Both the position numbers and the translations under genes were made by a program. A stretch of DNA of 64,000 nucleotides from Nigrospora sphaerica (taxonomy: Eukaryota > Ascomycota > Sordariomycetes > Amphisphaeriales > Apiosporaceae): contig JAGVVL010000015.1 of the NCBI GenBank assembly GCA_018287875.1, forward strand, positions 2,170,001 to 2,234,000. Direction: 5' to 3'. Numbering within the stretch: position 1 is the stretch's first letter; each line of letters opens with the position of its first letter. Positions 5,825-41,200 of the stretch are shown piece by piece. The notes beneath the pieces were generated by a model, which saw nothing but the letters and a program-made list of their open reading frames with translations, made no database searches and had not been told where the DNA came from.

Positions 5825-7840
5825 ATGTCCGCGAATATCCAAATGCCCGAGGCAGCTGCTCGGAAACGAAACCATGATGAATATGCCGAGGACTCAGTGG
5901 TGCTGCCTGTGGGTAAAGACGTTCCCGACACCGGTCTAGAGAATGCCGCCGCATCGTCACCAACAGACACTCATCTGGCGGCAGTCGAAGCCCCAACAAG
6001 TCGTGAGTACTGGGCGTTTCCAATTACCCAGATCACTGCATGTGGACTGACTGGTGATCCATTGCAGACATTCCCGATGTCACCGTAACTGATGCCGCCT
6101 CTGTCTCTTCTCCCCTCTCATCACCGCGAAGTTGCAGTCCCATTGCCCTCACGGACGTGGCGTCCAGGACGCCTTCACAGTTATCGCCCTCTCCAAAGAA
6201 GGCAACAACCGTCGCCCAACCGTCGAAGCTCGCGGTGCAAACCTTGCCAACCCGCAATGTTGTCTCCCCAGTCAAGAAAAAGGGCAAGTCAGCGGCCGAC
6301 AAGCAGCGGGAGGAGCAGGAACGAGCCGCAAAGCGACAGAGGAAGGAAGAGGAGGCCGCTGAGAAGGAAAAGCAACGAGCCGTCAAAGCCGCTGAGAAGG
6401 AAGCCAAAGCCGCCGAGCGACAAGCCAAAGCCGCCGAAAAGGCCGCGGAGAAGGCTAAGACCGACCGCGAGAAAGAAGAGAAGCGCCTCCAAAAGGAGAG
6501 GGAGGAAGAGAGGAAGAAACGCTCACAGATGACCCTGTTCAATTTCATCAAAAAGCCAGCCCCGCCAGACGACACGAAAGGCACAGCTACAGCCGTAACC
6601 ACCGCAGAGAGGGAGAGCAAGGGCGCGCCAGCGCAGCCGAGCACCGTGACGGAGCAGCCGAAGCCAGAGAAGACGCCGTACGAGCGAATGTTCCAAGGCT
6701 TCTACCGGAAGGAAGGCGTCAAGCTGGCACCAGTCTCCTTGGTGTCGAGCGAAGCCCAAGAGGCCAAATCGCGCATTCTTGAGGAGTATATTTCCGGCAA
6801 GCGCGTAGCCGGCGCGACCAAACCGTTTGACCCCGTGGAGACCTTCCAGTTGATCGGTCGCCAGCCCCCCCGCGGAATCCACCACCCGTCCGTGAAGAGG
6901 ATCATGGCCGATTTACTCGAAGATCCGATCGACCCGACTACGCGGACCGAGTCGCAGCAAGCACGTGTTGTCCATGTCGACAGGCAACTAAGCAAAATTC
7001 CGGTGAAGATTTTGTCCTTCTACCATGACGTGCGGCCGCCGTACGTGGGCACGGTCACGTCTTCCAGCCCCAGTGACCTCCGTCGCTTGTCACGCCGGCC
7101 CAACGGCAGGATCCTCCAGCGCCTGAACTACGACTATGACTCAGAGGCCGAGTGGGAGGAGGAAGAGGGCGAGGATCTCGATGATATAGAGGACGAGGAC
7201 GAGGAGAATGAGCCGGACGAAGAAATGGCCGACTTCCTCGACGACGCTGACGATGTTGTTGTCCGTCCTGCCTACCTGCCCGAGGTCGAGCCAAAGAGCA
7301 CGGGTATCTGTTTCGAGGACCGTAAGCGTCTAGGCCCTTCGCCCACCGTTTACAAATTCCGCATGGAGGTTCTCCTGGGTAAGCTCATGCGCCGTGTCCC
7401 GCCTACCGACGCCTGCGTTTCCGCTGACACCTGCAGACACCGCCCCGCAACACGGCATCAACCCGTTCTCTACCGAGTACTGGCAACCCAAGGCCGCCAA
7501 GCCCGAGGCTGCAGCAGCCCCGGTCCGGGCCTCGCCGTTTGAGAAGCCTATTTCAGCCACCAGCGCCATGGCGCCGCCGCCTGCACCAACCACAACCCAG
7601 CCGAAAGATTTGGTGCCCGCGTCAGAACTCGACGACTTCAAGCGTGCGGTTATTAGTGAGGACATTAGCATGCTGACTAAGGTGGCTTTGGTAGACATGC
7701 TCTCCAAGCGGTTCAAGTCCTGCACAAAAGCCCAAGTCAAGAATACGCTGGAGATGGTAGCTCACCGTGTCCCAACAGCCAACGGCAAGAAGTCGGACAA
7801 GCTTTGGGCCTTGCTGCCTGAACATGAGCTCAGCAAATAA
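5825..7840 (+). CDS. CAC1: Chromatin assembly factor 1 large subunit (p150/Cac1/Rlf2)
   Basis: Three exons, 5825-6002, 6068-7378 and 7437-7840, give 630 residues; introns are 65 and 58 bases, both phase 1. The order of parts is typical of the CAF-1 large subunit. It runs: a low-complexity N-terminus; a long charged Lys/Glu/Arg coiled coil at about residues 133-212 (the KER DNA-binding region); a PCNA-interacting PIP box QMTLFNFI (about 213-220); then the conserved MFQGFYRKEGVKLAP and LSFYHDVRPPYVGT blocks. An acidic stretch (about 414-454) binds H3-H4, and a C-terminal winged-helix-like segment ends in WALLPEHELSK. With Cac2 and Cac3 it deposits new H3-H4 behind the replication fork in the nucleus. 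The ATG at 5825 has the best context (CACC before it); one at 5810 would add five residues. Confidence 0.9.
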
Positions 7841-23450: not shown

Positions 23451-24847
23451 ATGTTGGGATCCATCCCCGTGCTCGCGGCGGTGCTCCTCGCCACGGCCCC
23501 GGCCGCCCTGGGCTACCCGGGCATGGGCAAGCAACTGGCCGAGATCATGAGTCGGGACGACGACGGCTGGGACTCGACCGAGATGATCGGGGATCTCCTG
23601 ACGCTTAGCGACAGCCAGCTGACGCCGACGGGCAAGGACATCAAGCTGGTCCTATCGGGGGGCGGCGACCCCGAGTCCGCCGCCACCTGGTCTGCCCCTA
23701 GCCTGGGGTCTTCGGCGTGCAAGGCCGACACGTGCTGCGTTTGGCAGTACATTGTCAACGACATGGTCGGCTCTTTCCGCGGTCCGTCCGGCCGTTGCAC
23801 CGGATCGGCACGCCGCGCCGTGCGTCTTGGATTTCACGACGCCGGGGTGTGGTCCAAAGCCACGGCTCAGCAGAAGCTACCCGGTGTACGTACTTGCCTG
23901 GTCAATGTAAGCAAGCGATGGCTGACCTCAGATTGTTGCAGGGCGCCGACGGCTCCATTTGCCTCACCGCCGAAATCCAGCGGAGCGACAACAACGGGCT
24001 CCAGGACGCCTGCGACTTAGCGACCAGTTGGTACAACAAGTGGAACAAGAAGAATGGCTACACATCCGTCACCATGGCCGACTTGATCCAGATGGGCGCT
24101 AACGTGGCCACCGTGGTGTGCCCGCTGGGCCCGCGAGTCAAGAGCTACGTCGGCCGCGTGGACGTTGCCCAACAGAATCCGCCCAATCTTCTGCCGCTCG
24201 CCTCGCAGCTGGCTCCTGAGCTCATCTCCATGTTCCGGGACAAGACGATCGGCCCGCACGCCCTCACGGCGCTGGTGGGTGCCCATACGACGAGCCAGCA
24301 GTTCTTCGTCGACCCCTCGCGCGCCGGCGACCCTCAGGACAGCACGCCCGGCGTTTGGGACACGAAGTTCTATGGTCAGGTCCTGGGGACCACGCCGACG
24401 CCCCCGCGTGTCTTCAAGTTCCAGAGCGACATTTCCCTATCCAATTACTCGGAGACGGCGGCTGAGTGGAGGAAGTTCGCCGCACCGGGTGGCCAGTCAG
24501 ACTGGAATGAGGTGAGATCCGTCTCGCGGCGCACTGTGAAGAGAATATTAACGGTAGTTTAGGATTACGCGCGAGGGTACATTCGGCTGAGTCTCCTCGG
24601 GGTCAACAACATCAACAAGCTTACCGAGTGCTCCAAAGTGCTGCCGCAGCGCACCCCCTCGTACCAGCTTCCGGACCAGAGCAACTTGGACAAGTGGCTC
24701 AACAGCAAGGGCGTGTCGGCGGCGGTGACCAAGGTCTCCAATGCCATTCACGACGGCAAGAGCTTGTCGGGCTGGGTAATCAACACGGCGAACGGAGTTA
24801 TTCAGGGGGTCAAGGATTTGCTTAACGTTGTTGTCGGGATTCTTTGA
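23451..24847 (+). CDS. Secreted class II haem peroxidase (lignin/Mn-peroxidase-like, AA2)
   Basis: Exons 23451-23885, 23942-24511 and 24563-24847 (introns 56 and 51 bases, phase 0) give 429 residues. A signal peptide (MLGSIPVLAAVLLATAPAALG) leads the protein. The distal haem site RRAVRLGFHDAG has the catalytic Arg and His. GADGSICLTAEIQ is the calcium/active-site loop, completed across the first intron. ALVGAHTTSQQ holds the proximal His, and DSTPGVWDTKFY is the class II block after it. Plant-type peroxidases oxidise phenols or Mn2+ with H2O2 outside the cell. Several cysteines (SSACKADTCCVW) form the usual disulphides near the N-terminus. All haem ligands are intact, so the enzyme should work. 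The C-terminal ~70 residues (from LDKWLNSKGVS) are a lineage-specific tail. Substrate class cannot be fixed from sequence. Confidence 0.88.
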
Positions 24848-25028: not shown

Positions 25029-25883
25029 TCAGTACAGACCAGGCAAGATACGATAAGGCACGTCCTTCTTGAACTGGGTCCACTGTGCGCCATACTTTTC
25101 GCCGCAGTACTCGTCGAGCACGCCGACGGCACGGTGGCTTAGGTCCCAGCCCTGAGCGAAGCCGACCAGCAAGCCGCCGATCCAGCCCGTCGCCACCATG
25201 GTGCAGCCGCCGCGCAAGAGGGAGTAGCCCAGGTAGTTGATGTGGCGGGCATAACACCACAAGCCGACGGTGCAGAGGCGGCCACGGTTGCGGGGATCGG
25301 CCTTGAAGGCCTTGCGCTGGAGCTCGGAGAGGGTCTCGACGACGACGCCGACGGCGACCAAGGCGGCACCGACGACGGCGGCGAGTGGGACGTCGGCGCC
25401 GAACAGCGACACGCGGGGGCCCGGCGAGAAGGCCGACGAGGTGGCGGCGGCGACGAGGAGCAGCGCATTGATCGAGTTGAGCGTCGAGTTGTAGGCCGAC
25501 ACGGCCACGGCAGCCGCCGGCGGGAACTCCTGCGAGTTGAGGAACAGCAGCCAGAAGAGCTGCTTGGCGGCGGGCCCGGCCGCCGCCGCGAGCAGCAGCA
25601 GCCGGGTCGGGGGTAGGTCCAGGCGGTCCAGCAGCGCGAAGCCCGTCTGCGCCGCTGCCGCCGGGCGCGCCAGCGGCGTCAGTCCCAGCCACGCCACCGC
25701 CCGCTCGGCCGCGCCGCTATGCAGGAGGTGGTACTGCAGTGGCAAGTCCAGCAGGCGCAGGCCGATGAAGGTGACGGTCCCCGCAAGCGAGTGCTCGCCA
25801 CTGCCGCGGGAAATGAGGTCGTATCGCCTCCACCCGGTGAGCTTGGACTCGGGCTCGGCCTTGGTAGATTTGGGGGGGGCCAT
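25029..25883 (-). CDS. DUF1295 / steroid 5-alpha-reductase-like membrane protein
   Basis: A single exon of 284 residues starts at MAPPKSTKAEPESKLTGWRRYDL. It has about six hydrophobic segments. The C-terminal KAFKADPRNRGRLCTVGLWCYARHINYLGYSLLRGG ... EKYGAQWTQFKKDVPYRILPGLY is the DUF1295 signature (NADPH-binding region of the 5-alpha-reductase/isoprenylcysteine methyltransferase superfamily). Members are integral ER membrane proteins; some reduce C=C bonds of sterols or lipids, but the substrate of fungal DUF1295 proteins is not known to me. The frame stays open upstream to 26129, adding 82 residues with PPAPSSHP-like repeats encoded by a minisatellite. I chose the internal ATG because the conserved part starts just after it. 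Confidence 0.8.
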   Translation of the reverse strand: MAPPKSTKAEPESKLTGWRRYDLISRGSGEHSLAGTVTFIGLRLLDLPLQYHLLHSGAAERAVAWLGLTPLARPAAAAQTGFALLDRLDLPPTRLLLLAAAAGPAAKQLFWLLFLNSQEFPPAAAVAVSAYNSTLNSINALLLVAAATSSAFSPGPRVSLFGADVPLAAVVGAALVAVGVVVETLSELQRKAFKADPRNRGRLCTVGLWCYARHINYLGYSLLRGGCTMVATGWIGGLLVGFAQGWDLSHRAVGVLDEYCGEKYGAQWTQFKKDVPYRILPGLY

Positions 25884-28974: not shown

Positions 28975-30088
28975 CTACTCCTCGGCTGCGGCCTCGGGAG
29001 CGGCCTCGCGCTTGTACTTGCCGTAGTCGCCGTAGGTCTTGTAGTCGTACTTGCCTGGGCACGCACGTCAGCACGAAACCGACCGGGAAGCCCAGGAAAG
29101 GGGGGGATGGGGGTGGTCTTACCGTAGTCGGCGTACTTTCCGTACCCCTTGTCGGTGCGGTCCTCAAGCTCGGCGGCCTCGGGAGCGGCCTCGCGCTTGT
29201 ACTTGCCGTAGTCGCCGTAGGTCTTGTAGTTGTACTTGCCTAAAGGGACACCATCAGTGAGGGGCCTCTACCCCGGGTAATTGGGGTGCTTACCGTAGTC
29301 GGAGTACTTGCCGTAGCCGTCGTCGGTCCGGGCCTCGACCTCGGGAGCCGCGTCACGCTTGTACTTGCCGTAGTCGCCGTAGGTCTTGTAGTCGTATTTG
29401 CCTGCAGGCTATGAGTATCTTCATCGAAGCCCAGGAGCCGCGCACCACGTACCGTAGTCGGCGTACTTTCCGTACCCCTTGTCGGTGCGGTCCTGGAGCT
29501 CCGGGGTCTCGGGCGCCGCCTCGCGCTTGTACTTGCCGTAGTCACCGTAGGTCTTGTAGTCATACTTGCCTGCAAGATATGAGCATCTTTGCCGTGGTCG
29601 AAAGGTTCACTAAGCACGTACCGTAGTCCGCGTATTTCCCGTACCCCTTATCGGTGCGGTCCTCGAGCTCGGCAGCCTCGGGAGCGGCCTCGCGCTTGTA
29701 CTTGCCGTAGTCGCCGTAGGTCTTGTAGTTGTACTTGCCTAAGGGGACACCATCAGTGAGGGGCCTCTACCCCGGGTAATTGGGGTGCTTACCGTAGTCG
29801 GAGTACTTGCCGTAGCCGTCGTCGGTCCGGGCCTCGACCTCGGGAGCCGCGTCGCGCTTGTACTTGCCGTAGTCGCCGTAAGTCTTGTAGTTGTATTTGC
29901 CTGCAAGGTATGATTAGCGAATGGGTCTGAGAGCGTCGGGTATGGATTGTAGTACCGTAGTCGGAGTACTTTCCATAGCCATTATCGGTCCTGGCCTCGA
30001 CGGGGGCCTCGTCCGACTGAGCCACGGGAGCGGGCGCCGCAAGCACCGAGGCGGCCGAGGCGAGAATGAGGACGGCGTTGACCTTCAT
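28975..30088 (-). CDS. Repeat-containing secreted RiPP precursor (dikaritin/UstA-like), Kex2-processed
   Basis: Seven exons (30088-29956, 29900-29793, 29738-29622, 29569-29453, 29401-29294, 29239-29123, 29054-28975) give 259 residues. All six introns (51-68 bases) are phase 1 and split the same Gly codon of DYG|KY, so each internal exon is a 36- or 39-residue module. After the signal peptide (MKVNAVLILASAASVLAAPA) the protein is six repeats, each ending KYxYKTYGDYGKYKR (x = N or D) and followed by (D/E)AAPE spacers. KR is a Kex2 site and the following acidic-Ala an STE13-like trim. This is the layout of fungal ustiloxin, phomopsin, asperipin and epichloecyclin precursors, whose tyrosine-containing cores precede KR and are cyclised by UstYa oxidases. 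A UstYa gene lies 2 kb away, divergently. The alternative is a Kex2-cut Tyr/Gly-rich wall peptide. The product is unknown. Confidence 0.85.
29123..29905. repeat. Tandem exon-intron modules; 499-base segmental duplication
   Basis: The block at about 29125-29405 recurs at about 29624-29905, offset 499 bases. It includes intron 5 (29240-29293) and intron 2 (29739-29792), which differ at only one or two positions, whereas the other introns of the gene are unrelated to these. The copied unit equals three exons plus three introns. Confidence 0.85.
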
Positions 30089-32056
30089 GATGGGCGAAGG
30101 GAGGAATACCAGGTAGCGGATCAAGGGGATGGAAGAAGATCAAGGGATAGAGGGAGAATGTGTGTTCAGGAGGCTGGGCTGTTGCGGGAGGCTGCAGATG
30201 AGACTTCCTTTGACCGGTAGAGGAAGCTGTTGCCTCTTATACCCCTCTCACAACAGACAACCATCTCTATCCGACGCTGACGGTCGTCCCAGGTCCGTCC
30301 TGACGGCCATCTCTGCCCGTACGGCTGGATCGCTGGTCACAGAGGCTCTTGTCCCGATCGAGAAGGCGAACTGGCGTACCGGCAAGGAGGTAAAGGTCCA
30401 GTCTTGGCTGTGTTTGTTCTACGACGGCGTGGGCCCGGGGCTATGGCGAACGGGGCCGAGCTCGAGGCCCGAAGAGGATGAGACATGACGCCTCTCTCTC
30501 GCTGGGCAGCTGAGCTGGCGGTGTTGCTGGCCAGTCGTTGCCCATCTTCTCGTACTTCCACCGCCCTTCCCGGAAAAGAAGCACTAGCGGCGTCGGCTGC
30601 TCTCGTCACGGCTGTGTCGGGACGCCAGCGAGCGGGGTTGCAGGTTGATGCTGACTGCGATGCCTTCGACACGAGCGAACTAGGACGTCACCGTGGGAGG
30701 GGACCGGCCTAAAACACTGGCATTCCACCATCACCTATCCTCGACGAAGGAAGTAACGCCCCGACCGGCTCCGCGACTCCCTGACCCGTCACGAGGCTAT
30801 CTCGCGCCAACCACTCGATCTCAGGTCGAAGGCCCGCGTCCCAGGCAGTTGGGAGCCAACGTCTTGAACCCACAATGTTAATTCTACTAGCGCGGCCAGC
30901 TGAGGTTATCGGTATAGCTGCCGGCTACGCCCCGACTAGTGAGGTCCCGAGTCAGTCATTGGTCCCACAGGCGGCCTGGCTAAAAAAAGAACACGGCAGG
31001 AAGGGTGGCCTCGTACCCGGACAGCCCACGATGACAGGGCGAATGCGCGGGGAGAGGGAGAGTCGGACCAGACGGACCAGACGGACAACGACACGCGGTT
31101 CGGCCACTCCAACGGGCGAGGGGAAAGGTCAGTCCCCATCCGCCGCATTTTTCGTATCCGTATGGGAGGGAGGGCTTAAGCTTGATCCGGTAGGGGTCTT
31201 CACTCGGCCACAGGTTGCCGGAGTGGAATGCGGGGAATCCTGGGCCGCCTGTCGCCCCCCCCCCCGCGCGCTCCTCCTCCTACTACACACGCGGTACCGC
31301 CTGAGAACGGCCGTTAGAGCCATGTATGGCGAGGATCTCACGGAGGATTTGGCAAAGCGAAGGGATGGCGACGTGGCCGGCTGCCGTGCGCCCCCAAATC
31401 TGTGGTCAGATAGGACTTTTGTCAATCAGCTTGTAGGCCGGCGGACAGGGAGAGCGCCAAGAGTTTGCCCCTCCAGGCCGGTAGACGGCTCAACTCCACA
31501 GCCCCCCGCCCCCGCATCAGCAACGGTGATGATGAATCTATAGGCGGGCTGTGGTCAGCCTCACGGCGGAGCTGCAGTGACAAGGTTCAGACCCCCGCCG
31601 GAGCCAACGTTGCATCCCGAGCTTTATTATAGGCTGGTAACCTAGCTGGCAAGCCGGTACTGCCGGCTCCACCTGCCACGCTGTGCCAATCCCATGACGC
31701 CCTTTCCCTACGGCGGCATGTTCGCTTGGCCCCGATCGTCCTGGCGTCCTCTCGCGACTACGAGCTGATGCGATGGCGTCGTGTCTAAGCCCCGTAGTAC
31801 GAAGGGCACGACACTTTTCAGCTGGTTTGCGACACTTCTCGCCCTCGCGCGGAATGCCTCGCATGCATCGCCCGGCTCCCCTCATCTTGGGGCCTCAAGG
31901 CCGACCAGCCTTAGATCGATCCCAGGCCCCCCGGGCATCCGACCCGAGTTCCAACATTTGGTCGACAAGTTCCCGAGTCTTCCCCCCTCCCAACTCGCTC
32001 CTGCTCTCTTGTCCCATTCCCCTTCATCATCGACCGGTTGCGTCTTTTCCTTCAAC
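30089..32056. other. Divergent promoter region of the RiPP locus
   Basis: These 1968 bases between the precursor and the UstYa gene contain the precursor TATA box (30233-30241) and pyrimidine-rich leader sequence before the UstYa ATG. No gene was recognised. A C10 run lies at 31256-31265. Confidence 0.55.
30233..30241 (-). promoter_or_regulatory. TATA box of the RiPP precursor gene
   Basis: On the minus strand the sequence reads GGGGTATAAGAGGC, about 150 bases before the ATG at 30088. The position matches the TATA boxes of two other secreted-protein genes in this window, consistent with strong inducible expression. Confidence 0.5.
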
Positions 32057-33115
32057 ATGCCTCATCACTACCAGAAAGCCGAGCAAGAGCACCAGGCCTT
32101 GACGGGTACCTACGACGACTCGACCGACGACTGCGAGTCGGTCAACCTGGACCGCCCGCCGGTTCCACGGCGAACCGGATGGCGGCCGGGTTGCTACTGT
32201 CTGGCCTTCCTCTTCGTGCTGACGGCCGTCTTGTCGGGCATCGTGGGTGCCGCCTGGACCTACCACGCCATCAACCTGGACAAGCTATGCTCGGCCTACA
32301 CGACGCAGTATTGTACGTGCCCGCCGGAGAGGGGTAGAGAGTGTGATTACTCGACTAACTAACCCGCGCACGTAGCCCCCTTGCTCAAGGACGTCGACGT
32401 CCAGTATAAAATGCAGACTTTCAACGGCTCCTTCAAGGCCGAGAATGTCTACCGCCAGGCCGCGGGGCCCGAGGTGGACGCCGCCTGGGAGGCCCTCGGC
32501 GTTGACTGTAAGTGGCACTCCTGATATATGGGGGTACAGGTCTAGCCCTCGGCCAGCTGTCCACAGAGCCCATCTGCCGGCTCTCGGCGCGAAAGGCGCC
32601 CCCCCCCCGGCCAAAAGAATGCGGCTAATTTCTCTCCAGCCCGCGCCGGCATCATCCCGCTCGCCGAGGGCGCGGCCTCGGGCCTCACGCGGCACCACGT
32701 GCAGGTGGCCGAGAAGCACGGCGGCGGCTACTTTGTCAACGTCGAGGCCATGCACCACCTGCACTGCCTGAACCTCGTGCGCAAGGGCCTGTACTACAAC
32801 TACGACTACTACAAGGCGCAGGGCGAGCACGCCTTCCAGAACGAGGACGTCATCATCCGCCTGCACGTCTCGCACTGCCTCGACACCATCCGCCAGGTCC
32901 TCATGTGCAACGCCGACACGGGTGTGCTGGGCCAGGTCTGGCACAACTCCAAGGAGCCCGAAGCCTTTCCCGACTTCCACTCCCGCCACAAGTGTAAGAA
33001 CTTTGACGCCATCCGCGACTGGGCCGTCCGGCTGCAGGCGCCGCCAGCCGACAGCCTGCCGGCCGACTTTCTGAAGGCGCCCGCTGCCGACGATGTTTTG
33101 GACCAGGAGATGTAG
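32057..33115 (+). CDS. UstYa-family (DUF3328) oxidative cyclase
   Basis: Exons 32057-32312, 32376-32507 and 32640-33115 (introns 63 and 132 bases, both phase 1) give 287 residues. A cytosolic Asp/Tyr-rich N-terminus precedes one membrane span (about residues 46-68, CYCLAFLFVLTAVLSGIVGAAW), then the DUF3328 domain. Both diagnostic HxxHC motifs are present: HHLHC (168-172) and HVSHC (205-209), separated by the typical GLYYNYDYYK...NEDVIIRL sequence. In ustiloxin, asperipin and phomopsin pathways these type II membrane proteins make ether or C-C crosslinks at Tyr of the peptide core. The gene faces away from the repeat precursor at 28975-30088, which supports a shared pathway. No second UstY, tyrosinase, S41 protease or transporter is visible nearby, so the locus is small. 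The start ATG at 32057 follows CTTCAAC. Confidence 0.9.
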
Positions 33116-38219: not shown

Positions 38220-41200
38220 TCAAGAACATTCTGCGTCCCACACCAGAGGCAAGCTCCTGGGCACGGCGCACACCTCGCCCTCGTCGTCCGTCAGATACAT
38301 TGTGGCCCCCCTCTTCCCGTCGGCCCTGTTGTCGTCGTCCCAGACCACCATCCAGTCCGAGTCAACGTCGGCTCGCACGTCTTCGACCAGATCGAATGCC
38401 TCCACCCCGAGCCCGCCGTCTCCCATCAGTTCGCTACTCCTCGCATCCGTGCCCGGAGGAAATGGCAGGGTGACGCGTCGCGGAGACCGCTGTGCCGCTT
38501 CGCACCGCAGCCCTGGCAAGCGCAGTACGGCCAGAAAAAGCCCGAGGGTGGTCTGGACGATGGGACACGTGGTGGCCAGGTCGCCGATACCGAGGGCGTC
38601 GTAAGTGGCAAGTGGGCGGTCGGGCTGAAAACGAGTCGCGTGGGGAAAGACGGACGGATGCGAGGCCGTCTTGGATACGTCAATCAGAGCTGGGGCTGTG
38701 GCTTGACGTCTGCGCCAATACGACCGACCGTTCTGCATGGCGGCCAGGCGGAAACCTTCCAACATGTATCCGAGGGCGCCGTCAGGTGTCTGCGGCTGGG
38801 CGAGCCCCCCGCGACCCGGGGGCATAACAATATCGTCCCGAGTTGCCGAGGGCCGTGGCGCCACGCGGTGCGTGAGAAAGTACTCAACACTCTCCACGAG
38901 GACGTGGCACATGGAGCCCACTTGGACGGCCATGGCCCGGATCAAGGGGCACATGCTGTGGTCGACGTCGCCCGAGTCCGCCCACCGATCCCAGGCCCTT
39001 TCCATCCACGATGCTTCCCGCCGGTTCCTTTGTGCTTCCAGAACCCGGGATCGAAGGAGCTCGACGGCGTCATGCGCCCCTTTCTCTCGCCCGAAAGCGC
39101 CACCGGGCTCGTGATGGGCCTCGGCATCGTATATGGCCGACAGCGCATCCCAAACGTCCGTCTCGGTCATGGATCCGCTCTGTGGCCGGGTGCACTCGGC
39201 GACATCGATGCGGAAAAGACGGCAGTACAGACGGGAGAGTACTGTGTGTGCCACGTCGCGGACGAGGTCGACAGTCCCAGCGCCCCGTCGCTGGGCTAGA
39301 TCCTGCATTAGGTTCGGAACGAGGCTCTGGGTCTCATGGTAGGGACTCCCGGAGAGCCGGTTGATCAGCTGCGCGTGCTGTCTCTCCAAGCAGTACTTTC
39401 CGGGCCGGAGGGGTGGGAGCAAGGCGGCGCCAAAGGGCGTGAGGGCCGGTGGAGCGGGGGCGGCGAGGCCGTAGGACCCGTCTTCAGCCAGCCGGGCCAG
39501 AATCGCGCGGCTGCGGGCCGGCACGACGAGCGGGAAGTGGGCGTAGATGCTGGTGGGTGCCAAGCTCCTCGGGAGGGCCCGGAGGATAAGCTTGTGCATG
39601 ACGCCGCCGTGGGCGACCTGGCGGTCCGAGGCGATTTCGCGGGACCTGGCAACACACCGCCTGTCAGCTTTTTATCCATCTCTCTCTTTCGCGTGGCACA
39701 GAGGTCCCGTGACTGACGTACCCCCAGCGCGTGACTACGGCGGGATCGAGGGCGTCGGCCAGGGCCGGGCTCCCCCTGAGCAGCGCCACCATGTCACGCA
39801 GCAGCGCGCGCGTTATCGTGGGCCCGCCGGCGAGCCCTCCCGTATACGCGCTGGCACGGCGCCGCGGCCCCTGCTGCTCGGCCAGCAACCCTGCCTGGAG
39901 ATCGACGGCCGCGGGCTCGGCGTACAGCACCCGTAGCCTGCACACCACGCTGGCGGAGGCGCCGAGCGCTGCCCACGTTGTGTGGCATGTGAGCCCCAGC
40001 CCGGCGCGGTGCCCGTTTAGCGTCGCGGGGCGGTCGCGTCCCAGGGCGCGCGCTTCTGTCGCACGAAACGCCCAGGGGGTTCGGCAGCTGCCGTACGCGC
40101 TGGCAACGGCCCCGATCGACGCCGTCAGCTCCGCAGCTAGCGCCTCCTCGGACAGGGCGCCGTCCTCGCCGCGTTCTCGTTCTCCAAATAGCCACCCCTC
40201 CGGTTGGCCGGTGCTGTCTTTCCCGTGAGCCCGCGCCGAAGCCGTCGTCGCGGCTTCCGCCTCTTCTGCGGCCGCACAGAAGTTGCGCTCGATCCATTGG
40301 TTGTCCCTTTCCGATACCATGGCCTTCCAGAAGCCAAGAACGCAGGGCTGAATGAGCGAGGCCGGCGAGGCCGGCGCTCCGCTGGCGGACCCCTGCACTC
40401 GTGGGTCCACGGTATAGTCCGAGCCCGACTCGTTGAGCCCCAGCAGGGTCTTGAGGTAGTCGTGCACAATGATATTACCATAGAGGCCGCAGGTAATGCG
40501 CCGGGCGGTCTGAAAGAGCGCCTCGTCGTGCCTGGCCCGGGCGTCGGCCCCGGGCGTATCCGGCCGTGACACCTCGGGAACGGCAAAGCGGCCCGATTCG
40601 TTGATCCTGCCCCGAATAAGCACCGCCTCCAATCTCGGGAGCCTCCGGCACTGCTTACACTTGCAGGCGGGTGGCAACGTAGTTGTGGTACCGGCCGAAC
40701 ATGACCAGCAGCACACCGACCCCCGGCGGCAACCGCGCCGCCTGTTGGGAGGCAAAACGGTCCGTCTTGAGCAGACCGTCTCGAAATAGCCTCATGGAGG
40801 ACCGGGAGGCCTCATCACGGCCATACAGGGGCGAGAGGTCGAGCGAAGGCTGGGCAGCCGCGTCAGGGGCGTCCGGATGTTCCTGGTATGATGAGCGAGG
40901 CTGCGAACGAGTTGAGAGGTTTCCGTCTTACAGTCTCGAAGGTATCCAATTCGATCACGCTCGCCAAATGCACCAGAATGCTGGAAAGTTGGCTTGGATG
41001 ATCCCGCTGCATCGCGTCCCGAGCCATCAGTAGGTCGAAAACTCGTTCGGCGGGGGGCAAATTGGCTTGATGCAAGGACAAAAGCTCCCTCTGGCAAAAC
41101 GATAGATGATGAATCCCAGCAAGAGAAGGAGCGGTTTTGTCCGCTTCTACCTGGGGAGGGTTTGATCCGTTGTCCAACATCTGTAGGATGACCTGCTGAA

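Follow-up and report, generated by a model that had tools for sequence, protein, structure and literature searches.

A six-unit, tyrosine-rich repeat precursor beside a UstYa-family gene in Nigrospora sphaerica: a probable dikaritin-type RiPP pair

Enzymes of the DUF3328 (UstYa) family are described as membrane-anchored, dimeric, dicopper and O2-dependent, with pairs of HxxHC motifs forming the copper site (CctR, PMC12435403). A 2022 review counted only five reported dikaritins, though by its account genes for UstYa and for a Kex2-processed repeat protein (KEP) are commonly paired (PMC10512285). In the compared parts of a survey of 1,461 strains, 1,758 of 7,878 KEP genes have DUF3328 neighbours, and in KEP type G-6, which includes Hypoxylon and Monosporascus, a DUF3328 gene lies beside 46 of 49 (PMC7329392). 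One further paper names UstYa once in its searchable text and has other genes as its subject (PMC13278821). In asperipin-2a of Aspergillus flavus, the core FYYTGY is described as being closed through Tyr ethers by the cyclase AprY (PMC6514808, PMC12186524).

The pair reported here comes from a 64,000-nucleotide stretch of the N. sphaerica genome (the window). It resembles asperipin-2a (AprA, AprY) in having one UstYa-type enzyme, a KEP precursor and a Tyr-rich core (PMC6514808, PMC7329392, PMC12186524). However, the asperipin-2a core as described has six residues with three Tyr, whereas the window unit has about 25 residues with eight. The two rings of asperipin-2a have 14 and 17 members, and the larger one spans YxxY. 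The asperipin cluster of four genes, as described, also holds a transporter and a reductase, neither of which lies beside the window pair among the scanned ORFs. With the ustiloxins and phomopsins (UstA, PhomA) the likeness extends to repeats, KR sites, UstYa homologues and, as counterpart of their signal peptide, a signal-like start, but their described cores are YAIG, YVIG or YVIP, with Tyr linked to Ile, and come with a tyrosinase and further tailoring genes. The window has no YxI-type core, and Pfam searches of 30 window ORF translations, in which introns may hide some genes, gave no tyrosinase, S41 peptidase, tailoring methyltransferase or other tailoring gene. The epichloecyclins (GigA) are similar in their imperfect 27-aa repeats and in a small cluster that includes kexB and a DUF3328 gene, but their products are cyclic octa- and nonapeptides, and a Tyr ladder is absent from their description as compared here (PMC7317419). 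KEP types G-5/P-1 and G-6 are described with Tyr-containing repeats, as in the window precursor, and its family may be one of these types (PMC7329392). The features of the locus, in window positions, are these:

30088-28975, minus strand: precursor gene in 7 exons, product of 259 aa with six Tyr-rich units and their KR sites
30088-29956, 29900-29793, 29738-29622, 29569-29453, 29401-29294, 29239-29123 and 29054-28975, minus strand: precursor exons
30026..30088, minus strand: N-terminus of some 20 residues (MKVNAVLILASAASVLAAPAP), hydrophobic and signal-like, from hydropathy only
29901..29955, minus strand: intron 1, 55 nt, phase 1, after Y-S-D-Y-G
29739..29792, minus strand: intron 2, 54 nt, phase 1, 53 of 54 nt the same as in intron 5
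29570..29621, minus strand: intron 3, 52 nt, phase 1
29402..29452, minus strand: intron 4, 51 nt, phase 1
29240..29293, minus strand: intron 5, 54 nt, phase 1
29055..29122, minus strand: intron 6, 68 nt, phase 1
30089..32056: intergenic stretch, 1,968 bp between the divergent start codons of the precursor and UstYa genes
30875-31543, plus strand: ORF of 222 aa between precursor and UstYa, no Pfam match
32057..33115, plus strand: UstYa gene, exons 32057-32312, 32376-32507 and 32640-33115, 287 aa

The first-pass annotation had placed the precursor at 28975-30088, and these limits are exact: the ATG is at 30088 on the minus strand and the stop codon ends at 28975. It gave neither strand nor introns. 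The gene lies on the minus strand, and its frame is open throughout only once six GT-AG introns are removed. These are 51-68 nt long, all in phase 1 and all at one codon of the unit, Y-x-D-Y-G^K. The internal exons are 108 or 117 nt long, divisible by 3 and in phase 1 at both ends, so that gain, loss or skipping of a unit would keep the frame. A recent block duplication is seen inside the gene (298 nt at 96%, spacing 499). Intron pairs other than 2 and 5 have diverged, with 29-40 positions identical over the 57-76 columns of a gapped alignment, and exons 2-6 are well kept (93-111 identical positions in 117 columns, or 105 in 108). With E allowed up to 10, two queries found no second copy of the family in the genome outside the gene, and against Pfam the precursor gave one match only, sub-threshold (SVIP, E 0.045).

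The precursor protein has 48 Tyr in 259 aa (18.5%) and no Cys. It carries six near-identical copies of the unit TDxGYGKYxDYGKYxYKTYGDYGKY-KR, with DAAPEVEAR, EAAPEAAELEDR or EAAPETPELQDR as spacers and EAAPEAAAEE as C-terminal tail. The Tyr-rich repeats with KR and D/EAAPE noted at the outset are present in all six copies: KTYGDYGKY precedes KR at every site, followed by DAAPE at two and EAAPE at four. The protein has no dibasic pair other than these six KR, which separate its repeats as the Kex2 sites of a KEP would. In each unit the eight Tyr stand at positions 5, 8, 11, 14, 16, 19, 22 and 25, making two YxxYxxYxxY tetrads, and over the protein 36 of 47 successive Tyr gaps are of three residues. 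The 25-residue segment lying between R-(TD) and KR has its full set of eight Tyr in 6/6 units. Over 27 aligned codons, amino-acid differences among the six units occur only at positions 3, 9 and 15, and no Tyr, Gly or Lys in a tetrad varies. Pooled over the 15 pairs, pS between units is 0.324 and pN 0.035 (pN/pS 0.11). A chance repeat was rejected on this difference and on the absence of arrays in Markov copies (below). Also rejected was TYGDYGKY, the core first suggested, as the whole core, the unit having no internal dibasic site. Since in addition all eight Tyr over 25 residues are kept in every copy, the core is likely longer, and TYGDYGKY probably too short.

The first-pass annotation had also claimed a UstYa gene next door, and a PF11807 match (E 1.3e-41, for the ORF of the last exon) together with the gene model establishes that it is real. 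Its protein has HHLHC at 168 and HVSHC at 205, and a hydrophobic membrane stretch within residues 44-69 by hydropathy, that is, the two HxxHC motifs behind one membrane helix that characterize the UstYa (DUF3328) family. By sequence, nothing significant was found for it in the PDB (best E 0.76). An AlphaFold model of the UstYa relative P0021 (mean pLDDT 70, pTM 0.56) has helices at 168-180 and 199-220 over the two motifs; Foldseek matched it to no solved structure (18 hits, best E 1.5). The genome has one match to a Kex2-type P domain. Elsewhere in the window, an ORF at 39664-40791 (minus) matches the animal-type haem peroxidases (PF03098, E 1.8e-9) and is probably one exon of a larger gene.

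A signal-like start, repeats, Kex2-type sites, a core with eight Tyr in 6/6 units and a UstYa homologue 1,968 bp away support the dikaritin-type class originally proposed. The precursor is probably a KEP whose peptide is modified by UstYa, as in a dikaritin-type RiPP, and whose core extends beyond TYGDYGKY. The six units stand on one chain behind the signal-like start, and this chain would be secreted. Kex2 would cut after each KR, the KR would be trimmed and the D/EAAPE...R spacer removed, possibly with an extra cut at the R preceding TD. In the secretory lumen, the membrane-anchored, dicopper, O2-dependent UstYa protein would link tyrosines within the YxxYxxYxxY tetrads, with loss of 2 H per link, and the constant i/i+3 spacing would fix the ring size. 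The presumed product, which would then be secreted, is a peptide of some 25 residues with several links, or a shorter one after further cutting. For the 25-mers in linear form the calculated [M+H]+ is 2984.29 (TDDGY unit), 2983.31 (TDNGY) and 2982.35 (TDKGY).

Three other readings were weighed. The KEP might release linear, unmodified peptides, signal or pheromone-like, with UstYa acting on another substrate. Indeed 6,120 of the 7,878 KEP genes in the compared parts of the survey have no DUF3328 neighbour (PMC7329392). However, here UstYa is the next recognisable gene to the precursor, and stretches no farther than 2.2 kb from a UstYa match make up only about 0.35% of the genome. The unit is also Tyr-rich, as are 65.6% of the repeats with DUF3328 neighbours compared to 38.2% of those without, as given in that survey (PMC7329392). 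We therefore regard linear peptides as unlikely. The 48 Tyr of the protein would also suit a secreted wall or matrix protein cross-linked by a peroxidase, whose KR sites merely serve trimming, and the window does contain a haem peroxidase ORF (PF00141, E 3.7e-21, 23702-24562, plus). This reading appears slightly less probable again: exactly one KR closes each unit in a constant context, and the peroxidase ORF lies over 4 kb off, with a DUF1295/ERG4-ERG24-like gene (25029-25883, minus) standing between it and the precursor. Action of UstYa on the units by hydroxylation or desaturation rather than Tyr linking is the least probable, for although the family is described as holding the hydroxylase CctR, the halogenase ApnU and desaturating members (PMC12435403, PMC10512285), the eight Tyr are invariant and regularly spaced, and Tyr ethers are made by the UstYa-type enzymes of ustiloxin, phomopsin and asperipin as described.

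Relatives of the precursor number at least 20 proteins at E up to 1e-3, from two database searches (at least three and at least 20, the latter including those three). Those named among the matches listed are from Amylocarpus encephaloides (Leotiomycetes), Venturia inaequalis (two) and Rachicladosporium (both Dothideomycetes), and Colletotrichum asianum. The last belongs to the Sordariomycetes, so that the named relatives span three classes of Pezizomycotina. Seven relatives (P0001, P0003, P0004, P0005, P0007, P0008 and P0009) leave the pattern right after the YG of a YGKYA-x-YG block. This is the break that an unspliced intron at the position seen in the window precursor would give; in these protein translations it does not occur in every unit. 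Tyr gaps of three make up 230 of 315 in the relatives (20 pieces from 19 of the at least 20 proteins, with P0017 left out, P0001 taken as two pieces and six others trimmed by hand). The relatives were picked by shared words, and the figure describes the family rather than providing an independent test. In P0010, P0011 and P0020 a short tail follows Tyr-KR (ALDWIKSNL, AIDFVKRLWS and FIDVLKR), which is absent from the window protein.

The genome has 52 matches to the UstYa family, merged into 38 gene-like loci at 25 places. Beside other UstYa genes, 20 regions were read, representing 18 distinct places of 23 (L035 is a copy of L032, and L025 and L026 are one place); two of the five remaining places, L002 and L008, were covered in part and have no arrays there. 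An array was scored by script when, within 1.5 kb, at least three KR sites had similar residues in the nine places before them; four of the 20 regions have one (L017, L019, L021 and L030) and 16 have none. One of these 16, L018, is sub-threshold for the script yet has a His-His repeat array in translation; the remaining 15 have none. In first-order Markov copies of the 20 regions, 0 of 100 had even two similar KR sites, a small control and a weak one in that some real stretches reach two, and six 10-kb pieces of the window without the precursor, a small control, had at most two.

The arrays at the other UstYa genes are unlike the Tyr ladder. At L030 (7849-8429, plus), a signal-like start and repeats VYQG / SWI[IV]PAGAEGE..KAKR lie beside the UstYa gene, with a short intron apparently between each repeat when read by eye, which means that the window precursor is not alone in having an intron per repeat. 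At L017 (about 6820-7220, plus), three DADLQYFPT-KR repeats follow a signal-like start, and at L018 (8427-9170, plus) there are His-His repeats (PHHKTKGGKGRKQQR), each beside a UstYa gene. At L019 (3114-4133, minus), units AYLVSYPEEDDKVA and SNPEEDDKVA form a KR array next to the UstYa gene. The 93-nt repeat of L021 (6946-7851, plus), which lies near a UstYa gene and has units like LGPPPTRSLKRPRKT, is a doubtful array, its reading frame being uncertain and no signal-like start being in view. L032 and L035 are 99.8% identical over 7,394 nt, and contig C4 (110 kb) resembles a copy of part of C18; the likeness looks like either a real duplication or a redundant contig.

Relatives of the window UstYa protein were taken from the best 120 of 510 matches, the top named ones being from Pseudomassariella vexata (63%) and Apiospora species (54-68%), both genera of the Amphisphaeriales, subclass Xylariomycetidae (NCBI). 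A tree was made of 48 of these 120, hand-picked to span orders, and the window protein. It needs 13 changes of group label compared to a minimum of 10, while shuffles average 30.9. The labels are our own assignment, and the one reading 'Xylariales' stands for Xylariomycetidae. Identity to the window protein is 47-64% for 32 aligned relatives and 26-39% for the compared paralogues of its own genome (alignments of at least 85 aa). With the tree near its minimum and relatives closer than own-genome paralogues, the gene looks like an old, mostly vertically inherited one, as judged from these comparisons. Rows of Xylariomycetidae need 4 changes and Sordariales-like rows 5, which indicates that UstYa duplications or losses have occurred.

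The overall architecture, a KEP with a DUF3328 neighbour, is of a kind already known in the literature compared. In relation to the characterised dikaritins as described, the window precursor differs in core length, core regularity and the use of one exon per unit. The precursor family may be among the unnamed KEP types of the survey, which were compared by description (PMC7329392). In literature text searches, short unit strings gave no title on a fungal precursor among the matches listed, longer family strings gave no match, and the phrase 'intron in each repeat' was absent among the matches listed. The original remark that no described family has this core holds only within these searches and the compared parts of two survey papers.

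A more extended proposal, which we put forward tentatively and consider doubtful as a whole, is that of an old, physiologically conserved Pezizomycotina pair in which one dicopper UstYa would turn every unit, with its 25 residues and eight Tyr, into a polycyclic 'tyrosine ladder' through a series of i/i+3 links, exceeding the characterised fungal RiPPs, as described, in links per peptide. Its symmetric exons would let the number of units vary in frame by splicing or recombination. The age of the UstYa lineage suggests, speculatively, a conserved physiological role rather than that of a sporadic toxin. The pair is a minimal one with an unusually regular substrate, and the UstYa lineage broadly tracks fungal orders. 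The pair could reveal a physiological role for the UstYa family, and could be a clean system for studying what determines ring size when a UstYa enzyme works along a run of YxxY repeats.
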